Source: a virus. From it: DNA of 20,709 nucleotides. How positions within the stretch are numbered: position 1 is the stretch's first letter; the number at the start of each line of letters is the position of its first letter. The DNA is taken from positions 1-20,709 of the IMG/VR virus record IMGVR_UViG_3300037070_008044; one strand, written 5' to 3'. Under the pieces are notes generated by a model. It was not told where the DNA came from. It saw nothing but the letters and a program-made list of their open reading frames with translations, and ran no database searches. Position numbers and translations under genes: made by a program. Positions 2,647-20,709 of the stretch are shown piece after piece.

Positions 2647-2894
2647 TAAAAACCCAACCTTTGTGAAAGACGCTTTGTCCATGTCTCTTTTGGAAGCATC
2701 TCTCTAAGACGTATTAATTGTTGATCTGTTGGAAATTTTCTTTCAATATACTGTCTAATATCTAGTGCTTCTTGAACTTTTTTCTGTGGAATAACTATTT
2801 TTCCTTGTGCATCCTGTAACAATTCCAATTGTTTTTCCAATGAAATTTTTTCTTTAATTTCATGATTGATAGGCTCACCATCTTCCAAGGACAT
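2646..2894 (-). CDS. Small unknown protein (82 aa)
   Basis: I do not recognise this family. The start ATG at 2894 overlaps the stop of the preceding spike-base-like gene by one base (TAATG), and its own stop overlaps the next start in the same way, so it sits in a tightly coupled chain. The protein is charged and probably helical: an acidic N-terminus (SLEDGEP), a Lys/Glu/Leu-rich middle, and a basic C-terminus (ETWTKRLSQRLGF). There is no signal peptide, membrane segment or cysteine. The position between spike-base and fibre genes suggests a minor virion component or chaperone, but nothing in the sequence proves it. Confidence 0.65.
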   Translation of the reverse strand: MSLEDGEPINHEIKEKISLEKQLELLQDAQGKIVIPQKKVQEALDIRQYIERKFPTDQQLIRLREMLPKETWTKRLSQRLGF

Positions 2895-3151
2895 TAAAAT
2901 AGACCTACTAAATTAGATGCTGTAGTTCCTGTATTAAAAATCTTTACTACTCTAATAGGTAAAATTGTGCCAGCCACGGCATTCGTGAAAACAATAATAC
3001 TTCCATCAAACATTAAAACCGCAATATTTCCTGCATTGCCTACATACAAAGCCCGAGTAACATAAGGTAAATATTGAGCGTCACTAGGACCAATAGTAAA
3101 CCCAGCGATAGCCGGTTCTCCTGAACCCTGTCCACTACGATCCATTACCAT
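2894..3151 (-). CDS. Head-spike-base-like protein, copy 1 (85 aa)
   Basis: A compact beta-rich protein with the pattern SGQGSGEPA, I-PSD, RALYVGNAGN, GSI, GT--PI-V and TGTTASNLVGLF. This matches my memory of the small phage family annotated as spike base protein, RCAP_Rcc01079 type, named for the head-spike base of the Rhodobacter capsulatus gene transfer agent. A second copy lies at 19204-19473 in this window, with the same motif order but clearly diverged sequence. A GGGAG stands 8 bases before the ATG at 3151; an alternative ATG lies two codons further on. It follows an adaptor-like gene and precedes two small genes and the fibre, so it may form the socket for that fibre. The family assignment is from memory and was not searched. 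Confidence 0.75.
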   Translation of the reverse strand: MVMDRSGQGSGEPAIAGFTIGPSDAQYLPYVTRALYVGNAGNIAVLMFDGSIIVFTNAVAGTILPIRVVKIFNTGTTASNLVGLF

Positions 3152-3781
3152 CTAACGCGCTCCCATCCTAAAAGATTTAGCTGTGACTCTTCGTCTCGCA
3201 ACAAAATTTGTTAAAGTTATTGCCCTAGCTGCATAATCTGAAAAATGCATCAATGCTCTTGTTGTCTCTCCATCTTGTGCTGCTAATTCATAAAGAGCGT
3301 ATTCTTCCAAAGCGGGTACAAAATCATCTGGAAAGTCTCTAAGTACCGCTTGCGGAAAATCAAAATGAGGAGCAAATCCCGCAAAATAAACCCGGAGAAA
3401 TCCTGCCGTTGCCTCTGGTTTAGGCCAGACGCCCATCCAAAAGAGCCCCCGCATAAAAAAGGATCTCGAAGGACCTGTTGATTGTTCCCATCGTGTACGA
3501 AGATCACTTACTTTAACAGGGGTAAGCCAATCTTCAATAACATCGCTCCAAATTGATGTCACCCCTAAAGCTGTTTCCGGTAACCATCCTCGAAGATCAT
3601 AATACGTTCTTAGATTACCGACCGGCACCGACACGTGCCGTTCATAAAAGCGAGTCACGTCAGAAAGATCATCTAAACCTTCGTTGATAGCGTCACGAAT
3701 ATCAACATCTTTCCAACGAGTCGATGACATCGCCTCGTGTCTAATACGAACGTTATTGATAATCTCCGAAAGAGGAATCAC
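3152..3781 (-). CDS. Head-tail adaptor-like protein (209 aa)
   Basis: The protein starts with MIPLSEIINNVRIRHEAM, then DIRDAINEGLDDLSDVTRFYE, a helical N-terminus typical of phage adaptor/connector proteins that dock on the portal (P22 gp4-like role). It continues with a conserved-looking centre (RGLFWMGVWPKPEA, then YFAGFAPHF) and a helical end (ALEEYALYELAAQ), then a basic tail. The start is GTG at 3781, overlapping the upstream stop by four bases (GTGA), with AGGACA just before it. Length and position after the capsid genes fit head completion: it would close the portal and link head to tail. The assignment rests on fold-like pattern and gene order, so the exact family remains uncertain. 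Confidence 0.6.
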   Translation of the reverse strand: MIPLSEIINNVRIRHEAMSSTRWKDVDIRDAINEGLDDLSDVTRFYERHVSVPVGNLRTYYDLRGWLPETALGVTSIWSDVIEDWLTPVKVSDLRTRWEQSTGPSRSFFMRGLFWMGVWPKPEATAGFLRVYFAGFAPHFDFPQAVLRDFPDDFVPALEEYALYELAAQDGETTRALMHFSDYAARAITLTNFVARRRVTAKSFRMGAR

Positions 3782-4044
3782 TGTCCTGCTGAACCGTATC
3801 CAATTCGGGTTCCTGGGAATGGGGGTGAATCATAAAAGCGAACTTCATCATAAGTCTCAGTTCGCTCTAAAATACTACGGGCGCCCCCACTGATGGGTTC
3901 AACATATGTCTGAACCGCGGAGCCATCACCAAAATCTAAAGCAACAACATTATATGGCTCACGAATATACTTTATATCACCGCTTATTGTTTGCTTCACA
4001 AAAATCGCCGATACGTGTCGGAGCGGAATCGCCAACCGTGCCAT
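3778..4044 (-). CDS. Small virion-type protein (88 aa), unknown
   Basis: The start ATG at 4044 has a strong ribosome binding site (AGGAGG with CCAAA before the ATG), which makes this start convincing even though the first 68 bases overlap the 3' end of the glycosyltransferase gene. The protein is mixed and beta-prone (MARLAIPLRHVSAIFVKQ, NVVALDFGDGSAVQTYV) and ends in a loop rich in Pro, Gly and Tyr. No enzymatic motif, signal or membrane segment is visible. It overlaps the adaptor-like gene by four bases, so it probably acts with it in the head-tail junction. Function is otherwise unknown. Confidence 0.7.
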   Translation of the reverse strand: MARLAIPLRHVSAIFVKQTISGDIKYIREPYNVVALDFGDGSAVQTYVEPISGGARSILERTETYDEVRFYDSPPFPGTRIGYGSAGQ

Positions 4045-4708
4045 TTTGGCCTCCTAAAACGCCATGAAACTGATTAAAGAGAGTTTCATTTGAGAATTCT
4101 GGACCAATGTGATGTTCACATTTTATAGATGTATCCACATGTGGTCTAAATCCAGCTCTCTTTGCTCGAATACAGAACGTAAAATCTTCTCCATACGAAC
4201 GTTTACCAAAGTCTCCACCAAACGGTCCAACATTACGACATTCAGGAAGTGAAGCGATACTCTTAAGGAGTTTAATAGATGTAAATACACACCCAAAACC
4301 CACTCCATCACAAGGCGAGATAACATTTGATGGATATTTTGCTGCCCATTCGAATGATTCTTTCTTATTTAGGAATGCAAATAGAGGCCAATACGGTGCC
4401 GCTCTTTGAAAATATAATGCACTAACAAAATCAAGACCATAACTCGTTAATTTAGCGATTGTTTCCGATGGAATCAAAAGATCGTCATCAACCCAAAAGA
4501 CTCCATCTACTTCTGTCTCCTGAGCAACATCTATTGCTGATTCTACAATCTTATTTCTAGCGGCTGCAAAGCCCATTCGATCCGGGCTTACGTCTCCAAC
4601 CCAAGTAATGCCATGATTTGCAGCAAACATGATAGCAGCACGATGGGATTTATCAAAAGAAGGGTCCGATGAAGGGCCATACGTAGGTTTCGCGAATAAT
4701 AGTCTCAT
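3977..4708 (-). CDS. GT-A fold glycosyltransferase-like protein
   Basis: Likely transfers a sugar from a nucleotide sugar. An N-terminal strand/helix with AAARNKIVESA is followed by VDGVFWVDDDLLIPS near residue 70, the DxD-type metal and nucleotide-sugar site of GT-A enzymes. A later SYGEDFTFCIRAKRAGF segment resembles the (G/E)ED catalytic region, followed by a His pair (CEHHIG). The frame extends to a TTG at 4720, but I prefer ATG at 4708 because it overlaps the radical SAM stop by four bases (ATGA), the usual junction here. The last ~22 codons overlap the next gene and read through its ribosome binding site, so the C-terminal tail may be an accident of insertion. It works in a cassette with a radical SAM protein and a methyltransferase. 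The acceptor (virion protein, host glycan or DNA base) is unknown. Confidence 0.75.
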   Translation of the reverse strand: MRLLFAKPTYGPSSDPSFDKSHRAAIMFAANHGITWVGDVSPDRMGFAAARNKIVESAIDVAQETEVDGVFWVDDDLLIPSETIAKLTSYGLDFVSALYFQRAAPYWPLFAFLNKKESFEWAAKYPSNVISPCDGVGFGCVFTSIKLLKSIASLPECRNVGPFGGDFGKRSYGEDFTFCIRAKRAGFRPHVDTSIKCEHHIGPEFSNETLFNQFHGVLGGQNGTVGDSAPTRIGDFCEANNKR

Positions 4709-5535
4709 ATCCTTGTACAAACCTTACAAATTTCATACTTATCAGCTTGATTAGTATCATGTGCTTCTCTAAAAGTCACATAATCAGAAGATGAATACAC
4801 TTCTCGAATAGTTTGCTTCGAAAGATCACCAAAAATCTGTTTTCCTAATGGATCAAAGCAACAACTAGTTACTTTTCCATCAAAAAGTATGTAGATTTGA
4901 CTTAATGCACGAAAACATGCCTCATTTGGCTTAAAGTTTCGTATTGTTCGGCCGTCCCCAGACCAATTTCCTTCTTGAATGAGCATGCCATGCCCATTTT
5001 CGCCTCTAAGACCCCATCGATCGTAAAAAATATACCCATCCGAACGGGTAAAATTGTCATTATCAATGACCGCTCGGACTTCAACGCCGCATTTTTCGCG
5101 GTTTTTGATGGCAAAATCAATATTTTCACAAACTTTATCGAATTTTCCATCTAAACCCATAATTTTCTTATGTTGTTCAGCATCTGTAGCATTTAAACTC
5201 ACCTGAATTGAGGATAAACCCGCTTCTCGTAGTGCTAAAAACCTAGCTGGAGTGAGATAAACTCCATTTGTAAAGACATCTACAATAGCTTCTGGCTTCT
5301 TTTCTCTCGCATAACGTACTCTTTCTACTACATGAGGGTCTAGTAAAGGCTCTCCAAGACCCGTAATACAAATTTGAGTAATCAAAGGAATCGTTGCAGC
5401 CTCATCGAGAATCTTTTTATACAATTCCAGAGGCATATTTCCCATAGTTCTCATTTTTGAAACTACAGGATATGGACAAAAATTACACGCCGCGTTACAT
5501 ACGGAAGTGTTCTCTATTTGTAGCTGAACACTCAT
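4705..5535 (-). CDS. Radical SAM protein with C-terminal SPASM-like cysteines
   Basis: Cys13, Cys17 and Cys20 form the CX3CX2C motif (CNAACNFC) that binds the [4Fe-4S] cluster used to cleave S-adenosylmethionine. A GE motif follows in ITGLGEPLLDP, then VDVFTNG and SIQVSLNA, as expected along the radical SAM barrel. The C-terminal part has further cysteines (EACFRAL, SCCFDP and a final ICKVC), consistent with a SPASM or twitch domain holding extra Fe-S clusters. Such enzymes modify peptides, sugars or nucleotides; the substrate cannot be read from sequence. The ATG at 5535 overlaps the methyltransferase stop (ATGA), and the next gene, the glycosyltransferase, overlaps its stop. Fold confidence is high; function confidence is low. 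Confidence 0.85.
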   Translation of the reverse strand: MSVQLQIENTSVCNAACNFCPYPVVSKMRTMGNMPLELYKKILDEAATIPLITQICITGLGEPLLDPHVVERVRYAREKKPEAIVDVFTNGVYLTPARFLALREAGLSSIQVSLNATDAEQHKKIMGLDGKFDKVCENIDFAIKNREKCGVEVRAVIDNDNFTRSDGYIFYDRWGLRGENGHGMLIQEGNWSGDGRTIRNFKPNEACFRALSQIYILFDGKVTSCCFDPLGKQIFGDLSKQTIREVYSSSDYVTFREAHDTNQADKYEICKVCTRI

Positions 5536-6068
5536 ATTACCTTACGTAATGCAAAGACAAAATTATTTCCATCATCTAGAGAATGATCTAATTCCCACCA
5601 ATATGGAGCTACATAACTACGATAATCAGATGATGCCGTTTGTCCCAATTGTTCATAATGAACTTTCCGAAGAAAAGAAAATGAATTTTCTGATAAAACC
5701 CGGGTATGCCCTGGATCCCCCCATGCCCATTTCGATTGAAGAGAAGGACAGGTCCCAAGTACTAAACCATCAAGATTTAATGCTTGCCAAAAGGCTCGAA
5801 AAGTAGCGAAAAATCCACGAAAATCTCCTTGTCTTCCAAAATGTTCTAAGATTTCATAAGCGTGAATTTCATCAATAGACCCATCACCAACTGGAAGATG
5901 TTTTCCTTTTTCAAGTTCTTCTAAATCAAATATAAAATCTGGTTTAGCTTTTGAATTAATATCTAAAGTTATCCACTTAGTTTCAAAATCCGGAGCAGAC
6001 GTAGGTGCCGTCAAACGACGAATTGGTTTACTATGTCCCGCTCCAAGCATAAGACAAGTCTGCATCAT
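5532..6068 (-). CDS. Class I SAM-dependent methyltransferase-like protein (178 aa)
   Basis: The N-terminus LMLGAGHSKPIRR carries the Gly-rich motif I of Rossmann methyltransferases. It is followed by WITLDINSKAKPDF (an acidic residue after strand 2, expected to hold the SAM ribose) and by VGDGSIDEIHAYEILEHF, the usual motif around strand 4 in family-11-like methyltransferases. A later strand reads LDGLVLGTCPSL. The start overlaps the stop of the zinc-ribbon gene by one base (TAATG). It is linked through four-base overlaps to the radical SAM and glycosyltransferase genes, so the three probably act in one pathway. The substrate is unknown; a sugar or a glycopeptide would fit the neighbours. Confidence 0.78.
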   Translation of the reverse strand: MMQTCLMLGAGHSKPIRRLTAPTSAPDFETKWITLDINSKAKPDFIFDLEELEKGKHLPVGDGSIDEIHAYEILEHFGRQGDFRGFFATFRAFWQALNLDGLVLGTCPSLQSKWAWGDPGHTRVLSENSFSFLRKVHYEQLGQTASSDYRSYVAPYWWELDHSLDDGNNFVFALRKVI

Positions 6069-6451
6069 TATTGTTTCATCATTTGAGCAACTTGACGATC
6101 ATATTGTCTCATCGCTGCTCGTCCGGCTCTATCTCGGGCCTGTTGTTCTTCATGAGTGGGTGGTTGAGGAGCCAATGAAATTTTCTTCAAATAAATAGCG
6201 GCAATAAGCTTCCAGCACCTAGGCAAAAGCAGCTCTTCCCATCTCTTAGGATTTGTAATTTGAATTTGTTTAGAACCGCAAGGACAAACATTAATTCTCT
6301 TAGCTGAGTGGGCTTCCAATATTTCTAACTTTGTTACCAAACGACCACAAATGTAACAACGATAGCAATAATGCAAACCATCAGTTTCACCAACGGAAGC
6401 CAATTCACGTTGTTTCAAAATCATCTCGGAACTCACATTCATTAGTTTCAT
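6068..6451 (-). CDS. Zinc-ribbon protein (127 aa)
   Basis: Two paired cysteine clusters, CYRCYICGR and CPCGS about 22 residues later, form a typical four-cysteine zinc ribbon. The C-terminal half has a hydrophobic helix (PRCWKLIAAIYLKK) and a Gln/Arg-rich tail (EEQQARDRAGRAAMRQYDRQ). The ATG at 6451 follows GGAAGAAGC, an acceptable binding site. This is the first gene after the terminator at 6477-6506, so its expression would depend on read-through or on a promoter I cannot see. Zinc ribbons are common in phage genomes and may bind nucleic acid or protein; here the gene leads the modification cassette. Role unknown. Confidence 0.7.
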   Translation of the reverse strand: MKLMNVSSEMILKQRELASVGETDGLHYCYRCYICGRLVTKLEILEAHSAKRINVCPCGSKQIQITNPKRWEELLLPRCWKLIAAIYLKKISLAPQPPTHEEQQARDRAGRAAMRQYDRQVAQMMKQ

Positions 6452-6476: not shown

Positions 6477-6506
6477 AATAGGGGGTGAAGTAATTCACCC
6501 CCTATT
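6477..6506 (-). terminator. Strong rho-independent terminator after the capsid genes
   Basis: A perfect 13-bp inverted repeat (AATAGGGGGTGAA and its complement) flanks a four-base loop. Read on the minus strand, the hairpin is followed at once by six T residues (complement of the A run at 6473-6478, partly overlapping the stem base). It lies 9 bases past the decoration-like stop and 26 bases before the zinc-ribbon start. It should separate abundant capsid transcripts from the downstream cassette. There is no U-tract on the other side, so it is probably one-directional. Confidence 0.88.
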
Positions 6507-6515
6507 AATTGTTCC

Positions 6516-6947
6516 TTACAAAGCCCTAATGAAAACTTTCTTTAAGGCTGCAACTGGCGTTGTACCCGTGACATACGCTTCACCCGCGTAGATAAACCCG
6601 GTCTTGCCGTCAGAGGCCGCAGATCGTGCAAGACGATCCGTAGCTGTGACGGGAATCAGGATATCACCAGCAACTACCGACACTGAAGTATCGTTAGTGA
6701 TTAGGGCACCAGCGGCACGGTACCCATAGTTCTGAACGAGGCCGTATGATGCAGCGGCGATGTCCGCATCCACTACGCCAACAACCAGGCTCAGAGTAGC
6801 TGTAACAGGTTGAGTTGTGCGAACACCATCTGCTGTTCCAACATCCCAGGAGACGATGTCGCCAGCTTGTACCGTTGCAGCTTGAGCATTATAAACGTTC
6901 ACGAAGACCTTCTCGGCCTCCTGTGATACTACGTGCGGAATCAACAT
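6516..6947 (-). CDS. Head decoration/capsid-stabilising-like protein (143 aa)
   Basis: A beta-rich, low-charge protein immediately downstream of the major capsid gene. It has AGDIVSWDVGTADGVRTTQP, then LSLVVGVVDADIAA, then GLVQNYGYRAAG, a pattern I associate with small phage head proteins that decorate or cement the capsid. The start ATG at 6947 follows a good GGGAGAAAG site. The gene ends just before a strong terminator, matching the need for as many copies as the capsid protein. I infer that it sits on the outside of the mature head; it could instead be a minor head protein. Confidence 0.65.
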   Translation of the reverse strand: MLIPHVVSQEAEKVFVNVYNAQAATVQAGDIVSWDVGTADGVRTTQPVTATLSLVVGVVDADIAAASYGLVQNYGYRAAGALITNDTSVSVVAGDILIPVTATDRLARSAASDGKTGFIYAGEAYVTGTTPVAALKKVFIRAL

Positions 6948-6967: not shown

Positions 6968-8041
6968 TTAAGCGGTTGCCGATTCAAGAGTAGCAACATC
7001 GATGTCATACGCGACACCAAGCTTCCGACGGTTGTTGATCCAGAAGGCTCCGCGGATAGGCATAAGAGCCGTTTCCAGGAGCTGGTTATTCGGACGAATG
7101 GAATCTCCCACCTTAAACGACTTACGATTGTCGAAGGTAAAGCCCATCCATGCCGAATTGCACATATACCAAGTACCCTTTGTGATTGCCACTGTTCCGG
7201 TCTGCACATCGGGAACCTGCTCATCAGCAAACGCCGGCTTGCCCTTGAACTGAACGGTATCGAACGGAATGTCACCCTTATTGTAATCAGGGTTACGATG
7301 CGTTAGTGCAAGAGCCTTCTCGAATACGACGAAAGACCGCTCGTCGGATACGTGGAAGTCAGGTGCTGAATTTGCCCCTCCCCCACCACGTTGACAACGA
7401 ATGTGAAGCGTGCGGAGCTGGTTTAGAAAAGCAACCAGAGTCGATGCGTTAGCATCGAGCGTCTGATTCCGCCACCAGGGGTTAGCCGACTGATCGATAC
7501 CAGCGACGGTTGTCGATGTGGTCGGGTCCTTCTTGATGAAGAGGGGCAGTGGGCTGATGAAGACGGATCCATCAACCGATGACGTAAGCGCTGTGTCCAG
7601 CGAAACACCATCTACTGCACCTTGGCCCTGAAGGAGCGCCTTATTAAACAAATCAATGATGGAAGCTTCAGCCTGACGACGCTTAGAGTCAACAATCGAC
7701 TCGATAGCTTCTGTTCCGCCAGTCTGAAATTCCTCCATATCAGCGAATGTGATAGGAGCCGCAGTCTGCACCCAAGCGAAGTATGCAGCCGTATCGCCGT
7801 CTGTCGGATTTACGTTAACTGTACCGAAAGCCCCAAGAGGCTTAAGCGGTTCCAGTGTGCTCATTACAGCTTTGCGAAGCTGCCGACCCCCGAAAGCAAT
7901 ACCCTCCCAGTTGCCCATCTTCTTCATGAAGTAGAACAACTTGGTCCCCGTCGAGACGTTATCCGCGACGATGGGAGAGAGCTTGTCAAGAGCCAGCGCC
8001 GCAATCGTATTATACGTTACGGTTTGCGAAGAAGGTGGCAT
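6968..8041 (-). CDS. Major capsid protein (357 aa)
   Basis: It builds the icosahedral head. The N-terminal arm (TVTYNTIAALALDKLSPIVADNVS) is followed by GGRQLRKAVMSTLEP, DTAAYFAWVQTAAPITFADMEE and VDSKRRQAEASIIDLFNKALLQG, a recognisable HK97-fold layout: strand hairpin, long spine helix and then the central domain. The C-terminus (LMPIRGAFWINNRRKLGVAYDIDVA) is also typical of phage major capsid proteins. It follows an acidic scaffold gene and precedes a decoration-like gene, the canonical order. GAGG stands 9 bases before ATG 8041. No separate protease gene is seen here, so the head is probably scaffold-assembled without maturation cleavage; that is inference. Confidence 0.88.
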   Translation of the reverse strand: MPPSSQTVTYNTIAALALDKLSPIVADNVSTGTKLFYFMKKMGNWEGIAFGGRQLRKAVMSTLEPLKPLGAFGTVNVNPTDGDTAAYFAWVQTAAPITFADMEEFQTGGTEAIESIVDSKRRQAEASIIDLFNKALLQGQGAVDGVSLDTALTSSVDGSVFISPLPLFIKKDPTTSTTVAGIDQSANPWWRNQTLDANASTLVAFLNQLRTLHIRCQRGGGGANSAPDFHVSDERSFVVFEKALALTHRNPDYNKGDIPFDTVQFKGKPAFADEQVPDVQTGTVAITKGTWYMCNSAWMGFTFDNRKSFKVGDSIRPNNQLLETALMPIRGAFWINNRRKLGVAYDIDVATLESATA

Positions 8042-9273: not shown

Positions 9274-10269
9274 CTAAATAGTAAACTGATTCTTATTTCT
9301 GTAAAGTGCTGCTTCTAATGGTCCGGTAAATTGTGCAGGAGTCTGTGCCGGACCCCCATGAACTTCTGGCATGCAAGACCCAATAGATGAATTCCATTGA
9401 TACCCTGCTGGACAAGTCTGTGCGGCGGGTTTAACTGGCTTAGGCGTCGCTGCTTTCACGGGTTGCGCCGGGATACCCGCCGAAAACGTTTGAGCGAAAG
9501 GAGCCAAAGCCGACGTGAGGTCCTTTGCATTGCCCCACCAAAGTCCACCCTTTGGAAGCGAGTAACCCGCGATTTCATTATCTTCAATTTCTTTCGCAGT
9601 TTTGCCAATCGGGGTCCGCGGCGTCGCTCCGCTGAGATTAGGGTCATTAGTTCCAAAAATCCCGGCACGATAATTGAACATATTCACTAGTACATCATGT
9701 AACTCATTACCTGTATACTGTAATTGTTTCTGAGCTAATGATGCCGGTGCTGCGGCTGCTCCGCGCCCGCCCCCACCTCCGCCGCCTCCCCCACTAGCGG
9801 GCTGTGTCCCCCACGCCGAAGTAATTCGCCAATCATCTAAAGGTAAACATTGATTAATATTAAACTTAGTAGTGCCCCCAGGACAATCAACTGGCTTGTT
9901 AAAACCAGCACCACCAATAGGGTTTCCACTAGCATCTACGTTTTCATTCCGAAAAGATTTTGTAGAATCATCCCAAAAACCACGCCAAGCTATCCATTGT
10001 CCTTCAGAGATACCTGTGTCATATTGATTAGGCTTTGATTTAATTTCTCTGAGATACCATTCGTGGTCATCTCCACCAGCGCCAGCATTTCTTTGATCGT
10101 TACATTGCTGATAACAACGATTGCCCCGCTCATAAGCGATTTCTCCGCACTGACACTCTGGCTGTTCAGTATCTGGTGCAGTAATCTCTTGGCCAGCTGA
10201 TGTGAAACATCGACTATTCGCAGGATCCCAAGAATTCCTGTTTGCACACCAACTGGGACGAGGAGCCAT
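9274..10269 (-). CDS. Cys-repeat, Gly-linker protein in the head module (331 aa)
   Basis: I do not recognise a family. Four short Cys-bounded units with spaced aromatic or Asn residues are visible: CANRNSWDPANSRC at the N-terminus, CGEIAYERGNRC, CPGGTTKFNINQC near the middle, and CPAGYQWNSSIGSC near the C-terminus. A run of nine Gly residues followed by an Ala-rich stretch separates the N- and C-terminal halves. The second half has helical segments around LHDVLVNMFNYRAGIFG and DLTSALAPFAQTF. No signal peptide or membrane segment is present. The ATG at 10269 has a good GGGGAGAAAA site and directly follows the previous stop (TAAATG). Its place between portal and scaffold suggests a virion protein or ejected internal protein. 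Confidence 0.7.
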   Translation of the reverse strand: MAPRPSWCANRNSWDPANSRCFTSAGQEITAPDTEQPECQCGEIAYERGNRCYQQCNDQRNAGAGGDDHEWYLREIKSKPNQYDTGISEGQWIAWRGFWDDSTKSFRNENVDASGNPIGGAGFNKPVDCPGGTTKFNINQCLPLDDWRITSAWGTQPASGGGGGGGGGRGAAAAPASLAQKQLQYTGNELHDVLVNMFNYRAGIFGTNDPNLSGATPRTPIGKTAKEIEDNEIAGYSLPKGGLWWGNAKDLTSALAPFAQTFSAGIPAQPVKAATPKPVKPAAQTCPAGYQWNSSIGSCMPEVHGGPAQTPAQFTGPLEAALYRNKNQFTI

Positions 10270-18472: not shown

Positions 18473-19207
18473 CTAAAATGTGGAAAAGGCTCTTCCTGCC
18501 CCGGCGTTGTAAAGATTGGCTATTGATATATCAGATAGCCCTATCCCCCAAATCGCCACTTCATCTAATAAGCCGTCCATGTTAAACGCGAGTTGTGACG
18601 CGGCTCCCCACGTTGATCCCATGGCAAATTTTGCTGTTCCATAGCCACTTAAAGTTGAAACAGTTGCGATAGCCTGAGATGCTCCATTATGAAAAATCGA
18701 AAAAACACCACTCATTCTACGGCCAACAATATGTTGAAAAGATCCAGTGGTCACGGGGGTGGTAGAGGTAACCCGCCCTCCTGTAGTATCCGTTCCGGCG
18801 ATTCTCCATTGTTTGACGGTGATTGCTCCAGTTGGTCGTATCCCTACTAACCAATCTCCAATTATATCACCATTATGATAGCACGCGATGCCCCGTCCAT
18901 CTGTTGCGTCACCCCCCGCCAGTGCTGTTGCATTTACCCATGCTGAAATGGTAAAGTCGCCCGGTAACGATAAATTTCCAGCATTAGTAAGAAGTTCATC
19001 ATTTGCGGCTGTAAATAAAGCCGCATTTCCAATCTTCCCGGCTCCTTGTGTCACTGTATTCACGTCTGTTAACGAAAAGCCTCCGAAGCTCGCGGCGCGC
19101 GTTCCGCTAGCCTCTTCCAGCGCCCAATAGGCGAGAAGGCCGTTGAGCAGACCAATGGTCGCGCCTCCTCCCTCTCCGACTCGAATTCCCGGGATTCGCA
19201 GATTCAA
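18473..19207 (-). CDS. LamG/concanavalin A-like lectin protein, possible head-spike fibre
   Basis: After a short N-terminal segment (NLRIPGIRVGEGGGATIGLL) the protein is one LamG-type beta-sandwich. LLAYWALEEASG opens the domain, GNAALFTAANDELL and DFTISAWVNA follow, and LLDEVAIWGIGLSDISIANLYNAG closes it, all hallmarks of the LamG_3-like family. Such domains bind sugars or proteins. The start is probably TTG 19207, overlapping the upstream stop by four bases (TTGA). That upstream gene encodes a spike-base-like protein, so this product is likely the fibre that it anchors, giving a lectin-tipped spike for adhesion to a surface glycan. This is inference from the base-fibre pairing known in the Rhodobacter gene transfer agent. 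It is not known here whether the spike sits on head or tail. Confidence 0.78.
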   Translation of the reverse strand: MNLRIPGIRVGEGGGATIGLLNGLLAYWALEEASGTRAASFGGFSLTDVNTVTQGAGKIGNAALFTAANDELLTNAGNLSLPGDFTISAWVNATALAGGDATDGRGIACYHNGDIIGDWLVGIRPTGAITVKQWRIAGTDTTGGRVTSTTPVTTGSFQHIVGRRMSGVFSIFHNGASQAIATVSTLSGYGTAKFAMGSTWGAASQLAFNMDGLLDEVAIWGIGLSDISIANLYNAGAGRAFSTF

Positions 19208-19473
19208 TAGAGTCCAATAAGGCCGGTGGCCGTTGTCCCCGTCGCGAAAACTTGAATCACGACTATCGGAATATATGTTCCCCCCACGACCCCAATCAGT
19301 GTCACTATCGATCCATTGACGGTCTCTAGTGTGACGTTTCCACCAACACCAACGTAAACGGCGCGTACTAGCTGGTCTAGCTGTGCCGTATCTGAGGGAT
19401 TGATAGGAAATGCCCCTACCGCCGGTTCCCCAGATCCCTGGCCTGATGTATTTTTAATTGGGGTGGGGGGCAT
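19204..19473 (-). CDS. Head-spike-base-like protein, copy 2 (89 aa)
   Basis: The same motif order as copy 1 at 2894-3151: SGQGSGEPA, I-PSD, VRAVYVGVGGN, GSI, GGTYIPIVVI, FATGTTATGLIGLY. The two share the SGQGSGEPA box and the TGTTA box but differ widely between them, so they are old duplicates or separately acquired members of the spike-base family (RCAP_Rcc01079 type, from memory). TGAGGTAATA precedes ATG 19473. The TGA stop overlaps the start of the LamG gene, implying coupled translation and a physical partnership. The protein is low in charge and beta-rich with no signal peptide, consistent with a virion part. Confidence 0.77.
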   Translation of the reverse strand: MPPTPIKNTSGQGSGEPAVGAFPINPSDTAQLDQLVRAVYVGVGGNVTLETVNGSIVTLIGVVGGTYIPIVVIQVFATGTTATGLIGLY

Positions 19474-19475
19474 TA

Positions 19476-19799
19476 TTACCTCAGTATTTTAAAGTTGGCG
19501 AAATAGGGCTTTAGAATTTCCTGCGAAAGTGGTTCTGATCCCAAGGCTGTTGCCGCGCCGTAATATGGCGCGTCGGGCTCTCGGATCAGAACGCTATGGA
19601 TCCCGGCGGCGGTCAGGCTTTGCGAGAGTTGCTCTAAATCTTCTGATTTTTCCGCGACGAGCGCAACGACCCGCGTGTCTGACGACACGGGGGCCTTGCG
19701 TATAGCCTCGCCAGCCGCGTGCGCCGTTTGGCACGCGAGCACGCCGGGGAGATTTTTAGTAGAGCGATGAACGACGATGTATTGAATAGGGGAGCTCAT
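19476..19799 (-). CDS. pth2: Peptidyl-tRNA hydrolase 2-like protein (107 aa)
   Basis: It would release peptides from stalled peptidyl-tRNA. It spans the normal Pth2 length: an opening strand (IQYIVVHRSTKN), the LPGVLACQTAHAAGEAIRK helix with the conserved Gln and His27, TRVVALVAEKSEDLEQLSQ, then IHSVLIREPDAPYYG and TALGSEP, where family members have their D/G-T and GT-T--G loops. The match is clear to family though not to subfamily; relatives with RxPDxPYxG are known from phages. The start codon and its GGGAG site lie inside a perfect inverted repeat (19790-19810), and a tRNA gene lies 34 bases upstream. It may rescue tRNAs under phage or antiphage translation stress; that is inference. Confidence 0.82.
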   Translation of the reverse strand: MSSPIQYIVVHRSTKNLPGVLACQTAHAAGEAIRKAPVSSDTRVVALVAEKSEDLEQLSQSLTAAGIHSVLIREPDAPYYGAATALGSEPLSQEILKPYFANFKILR

Positions 19800-19810
19800 T
19801 ATGAGCTCCC
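19790..19810 (-). promoter_or_regulatory. Perfect inverted repeat over the Pth2 ribosome binding site and start
   Basis: Arms GGGAGCTCAT (19790-19799) and ATGAGCTCCC (19801-19810) are exact complements around one base. In the leftward transcript the GGGAG binding site lies in the 5' arm and codons 2-4 in the 3' arm, with the AU of the start codon in the loop. A stem of about 8 bp with a 5-base loop would mask initiation. It could also be an operator or a tRNA 3' processing signal. Confidence 0.75.
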
Positions 19811-19833
19811 GCCGATAAGGATTCGGCGTGAGG

Positions 19834-19908
19834 TGGAGCGCCCGCTCCGAGTTGAACGGAGGGCCTCCGGATTATTTATCCGGCGCTCTAACACTGAGCT
19901 ACGGGCGC
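19834..19908 (-). tRNA. tRNA-like gene with encoded CCA and abnormal anticodon loop
   Basis: All four arms fold: a 7-bp acceptor (GCGCCCG with CGGGCGC), a 4-bp D stem (GCTC/GAGC), a 5-bp anticodon stem (CCGGA/TCCGG), a 5-bp T stem (CTCCG/CGGAG) with loop TTCAACT, then discriminator T and CCA. T8, A9 and A14 are in place. The anticodon loop is TAAATAA, so position 33 is A instead of the nearly universal T and the triplet by position is AAT. The D loop AGTGTTA lacks the usual GG pair (G19 becomes T). It may be a degenerate or specialised phage tRNA, or a remnant of a host gene. Identity cannot be assigned safely. Confidence 0.75.
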
Positions 19909-20368
19909 ATAAAGTGGCTAAATTTGAGGATCTAGAGATTCGTAATTTATTTTTATGGAGGGCGGTAAGGATGTCGCTAAATTTAGTATAGAGAGACGCG
20001 AAACTCCAGGAAAGTGCGGTAAGTGAGGAGTGGGGGGTCCTCGTCCGGGGGGTGGGGGCGGTCGCGGTTGCCGGTCGGCGTTGCTGCTTGCCTCGCTGCC
20101 CCATCTTACTTAGCTGCGCGCCTCGCGGCCCAGGACGCGCGATCGGCGATCCCCCTAGGCCCCCGCCTAGCGCGCCCCCCGATCGGCCCCGGGCGGGGCC
20201 TAGGCGACCCGCGTAGGGCGATACGGGAATAGTACGAGCCGCTGCTACGACATAGCCCGATCGGGAAAAATACCCTGAGCGCCGGGGGCCGCGCGGCACC
20301 ATTATGGGTCCAGCGGTGCGGCGCGACGGCCCGGATCCCCCGGGCGGCCCCACCCGAGAGGCTACCAA
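19909..20368. other. Divergent intergenic region with sharp G+C rise and palindromes
   Basis: No convincing gene lies here. The left ~100 bases are moderate in G+C and hold the candidate leftward promoter. From about 20030 G+C jumps to 65-85% per line, beginning with three long G runs (20032-20037, 20047-20052, 20054-20058). Palindromic words recur: GATCGG at 20141-20146, CCGATCGG at 20179-20186 and CCCGATCGGG at 20256-20265; CTAGGC/GCCTAG facing each other at 20155-20170, and GCCTAGGC at 20198-20205. These could be operators or replication sites, or simple GC-rich host sequence. Confidence 0.55.
19977..19990 (-). promoter_or_regulatory. Candidate promoter -10 box and overlapping palindrome
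   Basis: On the minus strand TATACT (19985-19990) resembles a -10 box; the hexamer 17 bases upstream is TTTCCT, a poor -35. The palindrome CTAAATTTAG (19977-19986) overlaps it, and a CTAAATTT half-copy lies at 19918-19925. Position just upstream of the tRNA, at the head of the leftward operon, makes a promoter plausible but unproven. Confidence 0.3.
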
Positions 20369-20709
20369 ATGGCAAAGACCTACACCAAGACCCTGGCCAG
20401 CGGCGCAGACCGGCTGATCCTGATCAGCGAGGCGATCAAGTCCGGCTGCTCCGTCTACGCGTTCCACGTCGTCCGGAACGGCAAGACCGTGGTCAGCAAG
20501 ACCCGCGGTGGCTCCGAGAAGTACCCCACGATGACCGAGGGGAACGCGGCCGTAGACCGCGCGGCGGCCGCCGCGATCGCGGCCGGATGGTCGGCCCCCG
20601 CGAAGCGCGGTGGCCCGGCCGCCCCGGACGCGTTCAGCCTGGGCGCGCTCCCCGCTCCCCGCGTCGCTCCGGCCCCGGCCCCGGCCCCGGCCCCGGCCCC
20701 GGCCCCGGC
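20369..20709 (+). CDS. Partial unknown GC-rich gene, Ala/Pro-rich C-terminus
   Basis: The only convincing plus-strand gene. ATG 20369 is preceded by GAGAGG at a 7-base spacing. The first ~75 residues look like a small soluble domain (MAKTYTKTLASGADRLILIS, then VYAFHVVRNGKTVVSKTRGG, then NAAVDRAAAAAIAAGW). An Ala/Pro-rich tail follows that turns into an Ala-Pro repeat and runs off the window edge after 113 codons. I do not recognise the family. Third codon positions are almost all G or C, unlike every phage gene to the left, so it comes from a different genomic background: transferred DNA, host flank or a chimeric join. Confidence 0.7.
   Translation, partial: MAKTYTKTLASGADRLILISEAIKSGCSVYAFHVVRNGKTVVSKTRGGSEKYPTMTEGNAAVDRAAAAAIAAGWSAPAKRGGPAAPDAFSLGALPAPRVAPAPAPAPAPAPAP
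20669..20709 (+). repeat. GGCCCC hexanucleotide run at the window edge
   Basis: More than six units of GGCCCC in tandem end the window, encoding alternating Ala and Pro. Such a run is a common stopping point for short-read assembly, so the window end may be an assembly break. Confidence 0.9.

Follow-up and report, generated by a model that had tools for sequence, protein, structure and literature searches.

A candidate virion-glycosylation locus of a tailed phage, with a glycosyltransferase and a modular methyltransferase-radical SAM pair

Layout of the locus

The window, by which we mean the whole stretch of DNA analysed, is a 20,709-bp IMG/VR virus record. On its minus strand the order is terminase, portal, scaffold-like protein, capsid protein, decoration-like protein, terminator, zinc-ribbon protein (ZnR), methyltransferase (MT), radical SAM enzyme (rSAM), glycosyltransferase (GT), an 88-aa protein and an SU10-type adaptor, and downstream of the adaptor the genes continue on the same strand to a large repetitive fibre-like ORF. 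Upstream of the cassette lie the major capsid gene (6968..8041, minus strand; PHROG 9953 major head protein, 1.8e-32) and a gene at 6516..6947 (minus strand), which directly follows the capsid gene in all members of the clade described below that reach this point and, judging from its position, probably encodes a decoration-like capsid protein. Downstream lies the adaptor gene (3152..3781, minus strand; Pfam SU10_adaptor, 4.6e-16). Upstream of the scaffold-like gene, a 331-aa protein with a Cys-rich N-terminus (9274-10269) resembles by eye a Cys-containing ORF found upstream of the scaffold-like gene of contig L002.

The initial annotation had placed four tightly coupled genes between the decoration and adaptor genes, and all four minus-strand ORFs were confirmed, running from 6451 to 3977. 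They encode a 127-aa zinc-ribbon protein with C-x2-C and C-x-C knuckles (6068..6451), a putative class I SAM-dependent methyltransferase of 178 aa with LGAG and EH motifs and with orthologues (5532..6068), a 276-aa radical SAM enzyme with a Twitch-type C-terminal domain (4705..5535; PF04055, PF13186), and a predicted GT-A fold glycosyltransferase of 243 aa, recognised by invariant residues and fold (3977..4708). The genes overlap by TAATG (ZnR/MT), ATGA (MT/rSAM) and ATGA (rSAM/GT), which is the pattern expected for translational coupling. The start of GT is best placed at ATG 4708, because this ATG overlaps the rSAM stop codon and has AAGGA upstream; an alternative start at TTG 4720 is then unneeded. 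The low GC content might have marked recent import of the cassette, but this idea was dropped, as a neighbouring virion gene is equally low.

A terminator on one side of the cassette and an odd 68-base overlap on the other had also been pointed out, and both are real. The intrinsic terminator (6477..6506, minus strand) consists of a 13-bp stem and a T-run and lies between the decoration gene and the cassette. The feature is conserved: a strong hairpin comes after the decoration gene in 13 of 14 clade members, the window among them; the hairpin sequences are unlike, and 8 have a T-run. A simple reading would be that capsid and decoration proteins are produced in bulk and the enzymes past the terminator in smaller amounts. 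At the other end lies the gene for a small conserved virion-module protein of 88 aa (3778..4044, minus strand), which has homologues after the cassette in relatives and shares 68 bp with GT. This overlap is considered genuine because AGGAGG precedes the ATG at 4044 and the N-terminus is common to relatives; the shared region encodes the C-terminal tail of GT, which is predicted to be disordered (pLDDT below 50 at 227-243).

Several smaller features were seen towards the ends of the window. Paralogous small proteins of about 85-89 aa (SGQGSGEPA...) are encoded at opposite ends (2894-3151 and 19204-19473), and a relative of them stands directly after GT in L069. The product of the 107-aa ORF at 19476-19799 resembles a PTH2-type peptidyl-tRNA hydrolase. 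The right end (19801-20709) rises to about 64% GC and has no convincing gene, and is possibly foreign or misassembled.

The cassette in related phages

The clade of relatives was assembled from two scans of viral contigs, one with a capsid alignment and one with rSAM, and the region between the decoration and adaptor genes was defined as the slot. All four functions were found in the slot of the window and of 9 further distinct relatives in which the slot is largely in view (L088, L089, L105 with its duplicate L106, L109, L110, L113, L116, L117 and L118; for L113, L117 and L118 the adaptor side lies beyond the stretch read), and their orders are shuffled. The window has ZnR-MT-rSAM-GT, L105 and its duplicate MT-rSAM-ZnR-GT, L109 and L110 rSAM-ZnR-GT-MT, L113 and L117 MT-rSAM-GT-ZnR, and L116 and L118 rSAM-MT-GT-ZnR. 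The order is rSAM-MT'-ZnR-GT in L088, where MT' is a different methyltransferase family replacing the window type. In L089, MT and rSAM form one fused protein of 478 aa, with MT', GT and ZnR after it. Two more contigs, L107 and L111, are consistent with the set as far as their sequence reaches.

The initial annotation had raised the question of whether the set travels together. Neighbourhood comparison bears this out to the extent that the same functions recur in the same slot of relatives, but the set is not indivisible. In L114 the slot holds GT and ZnR, and in place of rSAM and MT it has a PLOD-type glycosyltransferase together with a polysaccharide pyruvyl transferase (L114:10670-12102), both of them glycan enzymes; in L115 it holds ZnR alone. 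In most relatives GT is present but rSAM is not, and the more distant L125-L130 carry GT and MT' only. In L035, which has an HK97-type capsid, a GT-family enzyme fused to a methyltransferase stands just before an rSAM relative, and a GT-family enzyme precedes an rSAM relative in a similar order in L090-L095.

Protein distances were then compared with those of the capsid protein. The correlation was high for GT (r 0.81), lower for ZnR (0.62), weak for rSAM (0.33) and lowest for MT (0.13); between cassette proteins it was 0.80 for GT-ZnR and 0.60 for MT-rSAM. In the trees of both capsid and GT, a sublineage B (L089, L113, L114, L116, L117 and L118) forms a clade with 100/100 support, and it is rejected in the tests with rSAM (p 0.003) and with MT (p 1e-91). 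The MT of the window falls together with those of L089, L113 and L117 (100/99); the rSAM of L116 falls with those of L107, L109 and L110 (100/99), against the placement of the L116 capsid and GT. It therefore appears that MT and rSAM are passed together from phage to phage while GT remains tied to the capsid. GT and ZnR would thus diversify with the capsid, and MT and rSAM would be a second unit exchanged between capsid sublineages; the evidence is strong but not final, because the groups tested were partly picked after viewing the trees and the sequences are few and divergent. A single indivisible four-gene operon is ruled out by L114, L115 and the tree conflicts. It should be added that inheritance of GT with the capsid is equally expected of any core phage gene, which counts against reading it as a sign of virion glycosylation.

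Properties of the cassette proteins

A Pfam scan gave no match for the GT, MT or ZnR of the window, and the identities of GT and MT rest on relatives, alignments and predicted fold. The N-terminal half of the L089 fusion is an orthologue of the window MT (49%), and a further orthologue, in L117, matches Methyltransf_11 above cut-off. LGAG and D36 are conserved, and with a Rossmann motif I and an acidic residue ending the second strand the protein can be assigned to the class I SAM methyltransferases. For ZnR, the cysteine pattern of the knuckles is kept in 11 of 12 aligned sequences. One knuckle cysteine is lost in the ZnR of L114 (L114:12820-13164), which belongs to the lineage without rSAM and MT.

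In GT, residues D74, D76, E174, D175 and H199 are invariant in 38 sequences. Structure prediction gave a confident model (pLDDT 90), from which the protein would be a GT-A glycosyltransferase with a DXD-type metal site. Its nearest solved structure is STIV A197 (PDB 2c0n; E 3.4e-10, Z 18.7 over 171 residues), and further fold neighbours are LH3, Mnn9, mimivirus R699 and COLGALT1. The match to LH3 covers residues 296-539, which we take to be a non-catalytic accessory domain of that protein. Similarity of fold does not by itself identify the acceptor of GT. The genomic surroundings of the GT family were counted over 68 loci with enough upstream sequence, and a locus was scored as capsid-linked when a capsid gene lay on the same strand at most 3 kb upstream. 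This was found at 44 of 68 loci, often within 400 bp, a fraction that is biased upward because the search seeds were themselves capsid-adjacent; after clustering, 25 of 41 clusters at 90% identity and 12 of 22 at 50% were linked. The upstream capsids are of SU10 or HK97 type, the latter in 7 of the 25 linked clusters (90% identity), and the HK97-type linked loci differ from the search seeds. The family is thus found with two other capsid types as well.

The rSAM of the window carries a canonical CX3CX2C motif, in which C13, C17 and C20 are invariant in 12 sequences, and matches Radical_SAM (PF04055) over cut-off at 1e-19 and SPASM (PF13186) at 7.6e-12; by motif and domain it belongs to the Radical SAM superfamily. 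The initial annotation had taken its SPASM-like cysteines as a hint of peptide or protein work. According to PMC6231123, the 7-Cys SPASM motif is CX9-15GX4C-gap-CX2CX5CX3C-gap-C, with two auxiliary clusters, and the function of SPASM/Twitch enzymes is hard to predict from sequence similarity. The C-terminal domain of rSAM does not have this 7-Cys motif. In the alignment of relatives its only conserved cysteines are C207, C225/C226 (one of the adjacent pair being extra), C270 and C273, and the domain is therefore of the Twitch type, a truncated SPASM with four cysteines and one predicted auxiliary cluster.

The closest solved structure to rSAM by sequence is BtrN (1.3e-16; best matches 4m7t and 4m7s). 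By fold BtrN again comes first and BlsE second, with anSME and SuiB close behind. BtrN and BlsE act on carbohydrate-type substrates, and anSME and SuiB are peptide or protein enzymes. It is conceivable that rSAM modifies a virion protein or peptide directly, by epimerisation, cross-linking or anSME-like Cys/Ser oxidation, in which case methylation and glycosylation would be additional modifications of protein. The SPASM match and the presence of anSME and SuiB among the top structural matches speak for this, and in these model comparisons their closeness weighs against sugar tailoring. However, the domain is a Twitch rather than a 7-Cys SPASM; there is no space for an N-terminal RRE because CX3CX2C begins at residue 13, nor was an RRE seen in the Pfam scan of the protein; no dedicated or conserved small precursor gene was found beside rSAM in the slot of the window and relatives; BtrN is the best match by both sequence and fold; and in L114 the pair is swapped for the pyruvyl transferase and a glycosyltransferase. 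By sequence, rSAM does not look like a RiPP-type maturase, the hint drawn from the cysteines does not hold up, and direct protein modification seems unlikely.

Wider searches placed the enzyme no more closely. In NCBIfam all matches were far below cut-off and no equivalog could be assigned. Single-sequence searches with rSAM gave no match in viral contigs and two remote matches only in phage records; one of these two, MT835743 (L004), was set aside because it looks bacterial, with V-type ATPase genes nearby. Where bacterial and archaeal MAGs encode homologues, the genes around them are mixed (methyltransferases, one GT, UbiA, RNase HII) and give no clue to the substrate.

Proposed function and comparison with known systems

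Gene content, the conserved slot, the MT-rSAM fusion, the exchange of the pair, the GT-A fold and the Twitch domain were all obtained by computation. On this basis our reading, of moderate confidence, is that a tailed phage here carries a locus for virion glycosylation, made up of GT and a modular sugar-tailoring MT-rSAM pair; that the acceptor is a virion protein and that rSAM works on a sugar is what we infer. GT, inherited with the capsid genes, would move a sugar from a host nucleotide-sugar onto a virion protein, and the candidate acceptors are the capsid, decoration or a neighbouring head or tail protein. A host source is assumed because no NTP_transferase-family gene for nucleotide-sugar synthesis was found in 9 relative contigs. 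The rSAM/Twitch and MT pair may then modify this sugar, for example by oxidising or rearranging a sugar carbon and adding a methyl group, so that the particle would end up with an unusual glycan. The pair would be a swappable tailoring unit that alters the glycan between phage lineages, and ZnR would belong to the core of this virion module, perhaps serving as an adaptor or chaperone. More tentatively, the virus-encoded rSAM/Twitch, fused to MT in one lineage, might carry out radical chemistry on a virion-attached sugar, the pair being shuffled as a glycan-diversifying cassette while GT stays with the capsid. The initial annotation had offered building or decorating a glycan, modifying a virion protein or altering a peptide; glycan building or decoration tied to virion proteins fits best, and peptide or protein chemistry by rSAM is the part that fell away.

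The enzymes could instead alter the host cell surface during infection (O-antigen or another envelope glycan) and so block superinfection or change receptors. This has been proposed, in PMC7029224, for the glycosyltransferases of pelagimyophages, whose cassettes also include radical SAM genes, and surface polysaccharides typically involve pyruvyl transferases and enzymes of GT2 type. Yet in unrelated phages the genes sit within the run of late genes from head to adaptor, and the 9 relative contigs (18-93 kb, possibly all fragments) hold no integrase; late position and lack of an integrase weaken the proposal. In addition, the same contigs lack an NTP_transferase-family gene, and no flippase- or polymerase-like gene was noticed in the slot. 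We regard host-surface modification as rather unlikely.

Some pathways of base modification include radical SAM enzymes, and in principle the cassette could serve to assemble a sugar on modified bases in phage DNA. Glycosyltransferases do act on modified phage DNA, as discussed in PMC12619734. However, no gene of the thymidylate synthase/hydroxymethylase family was found in the 9 relative contigs while the controls matched, which weakens this explanation; there is also no recognised DNA methyltransferase in the cassette, and the cassette is located in the virion block. A TET/JBP search gave no match in any control. DNA hypermodification is considered very improbable.

Returning to virion glycosylation, few cases are known in tailed phages. 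Freeman et al. 2023 reportedly described virion glycosylation of mycobacteriophages. The study is cited in PMC12619734 and PMC11256854; in these phages glycans are carried on capsid and tail tube subunits and the glycosyltransferases are phage-encoded. Tailed morphology and phage-encoded glycosyltransferases are shared with the present locus; in contrast, a single GT stands right after the capsid genes in the window, partnered by an MT-radical SAM unit that can be exchanged. The literature searched held no account of the cassette, a statement limited to that literature.

Like the window GT, STIV A197 is a small viral enzyme of GT-A fold, and it is suspected of glycosylating the major coat protein of its virus; it comes, however, from an archaeal virus, and the two share only about 20% sequence identity. 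We know of no radical SAM or methyltransferase linked to it. In PMC10551542, A197 is described as essential and as possibly glycosylating the STIV coat protein. BtrN (2-deoxy-scyllo-inosamine dehydrogenase, PDB 4m7t) resembles rSAM in its two domains, with CX3CX2C and four auxiliary-cluster cysteines; it differs in sequence (about 20% identity), and rSAM is fused to a methyltransferase in one relative. The pelagimyophage host-recognition region, according to PMC7029224, is variable and likewise contains radical SAM genes and phage glycosyltransferases, but it is a tail-fibre region read as serving host-surface modification, whereas the window set occupies the slot between capsid and adaptor, where gene content hardly varies. 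The SU10-type environmental phages MW202711 and MW202496 share the order capsid, small gene, related GT and next head/tail gene; there GT stands alone, in a slot without radical SAM, methyltransferase or zinc ribbon.

If the virion-glycosylation reading is true, it would suggest that customised sugars are common on phage particles, with effects on adsorption, particle stability and recognition. This wider meaning is based on a GT family tied to several capsid types and on exchangeable tailoring enzymes that include radical chemistry. The compact MT-radical SAM fusion of L089 would offer a handle for biochemistry. Finally, the large fibre-like ORF at 2-2500 runs off the contig end and has many Ala/Ser/Thr-rich repeats (ASAAATSVLAGISAVSARTTAA); its product is a possible candidate glycan acceptor.
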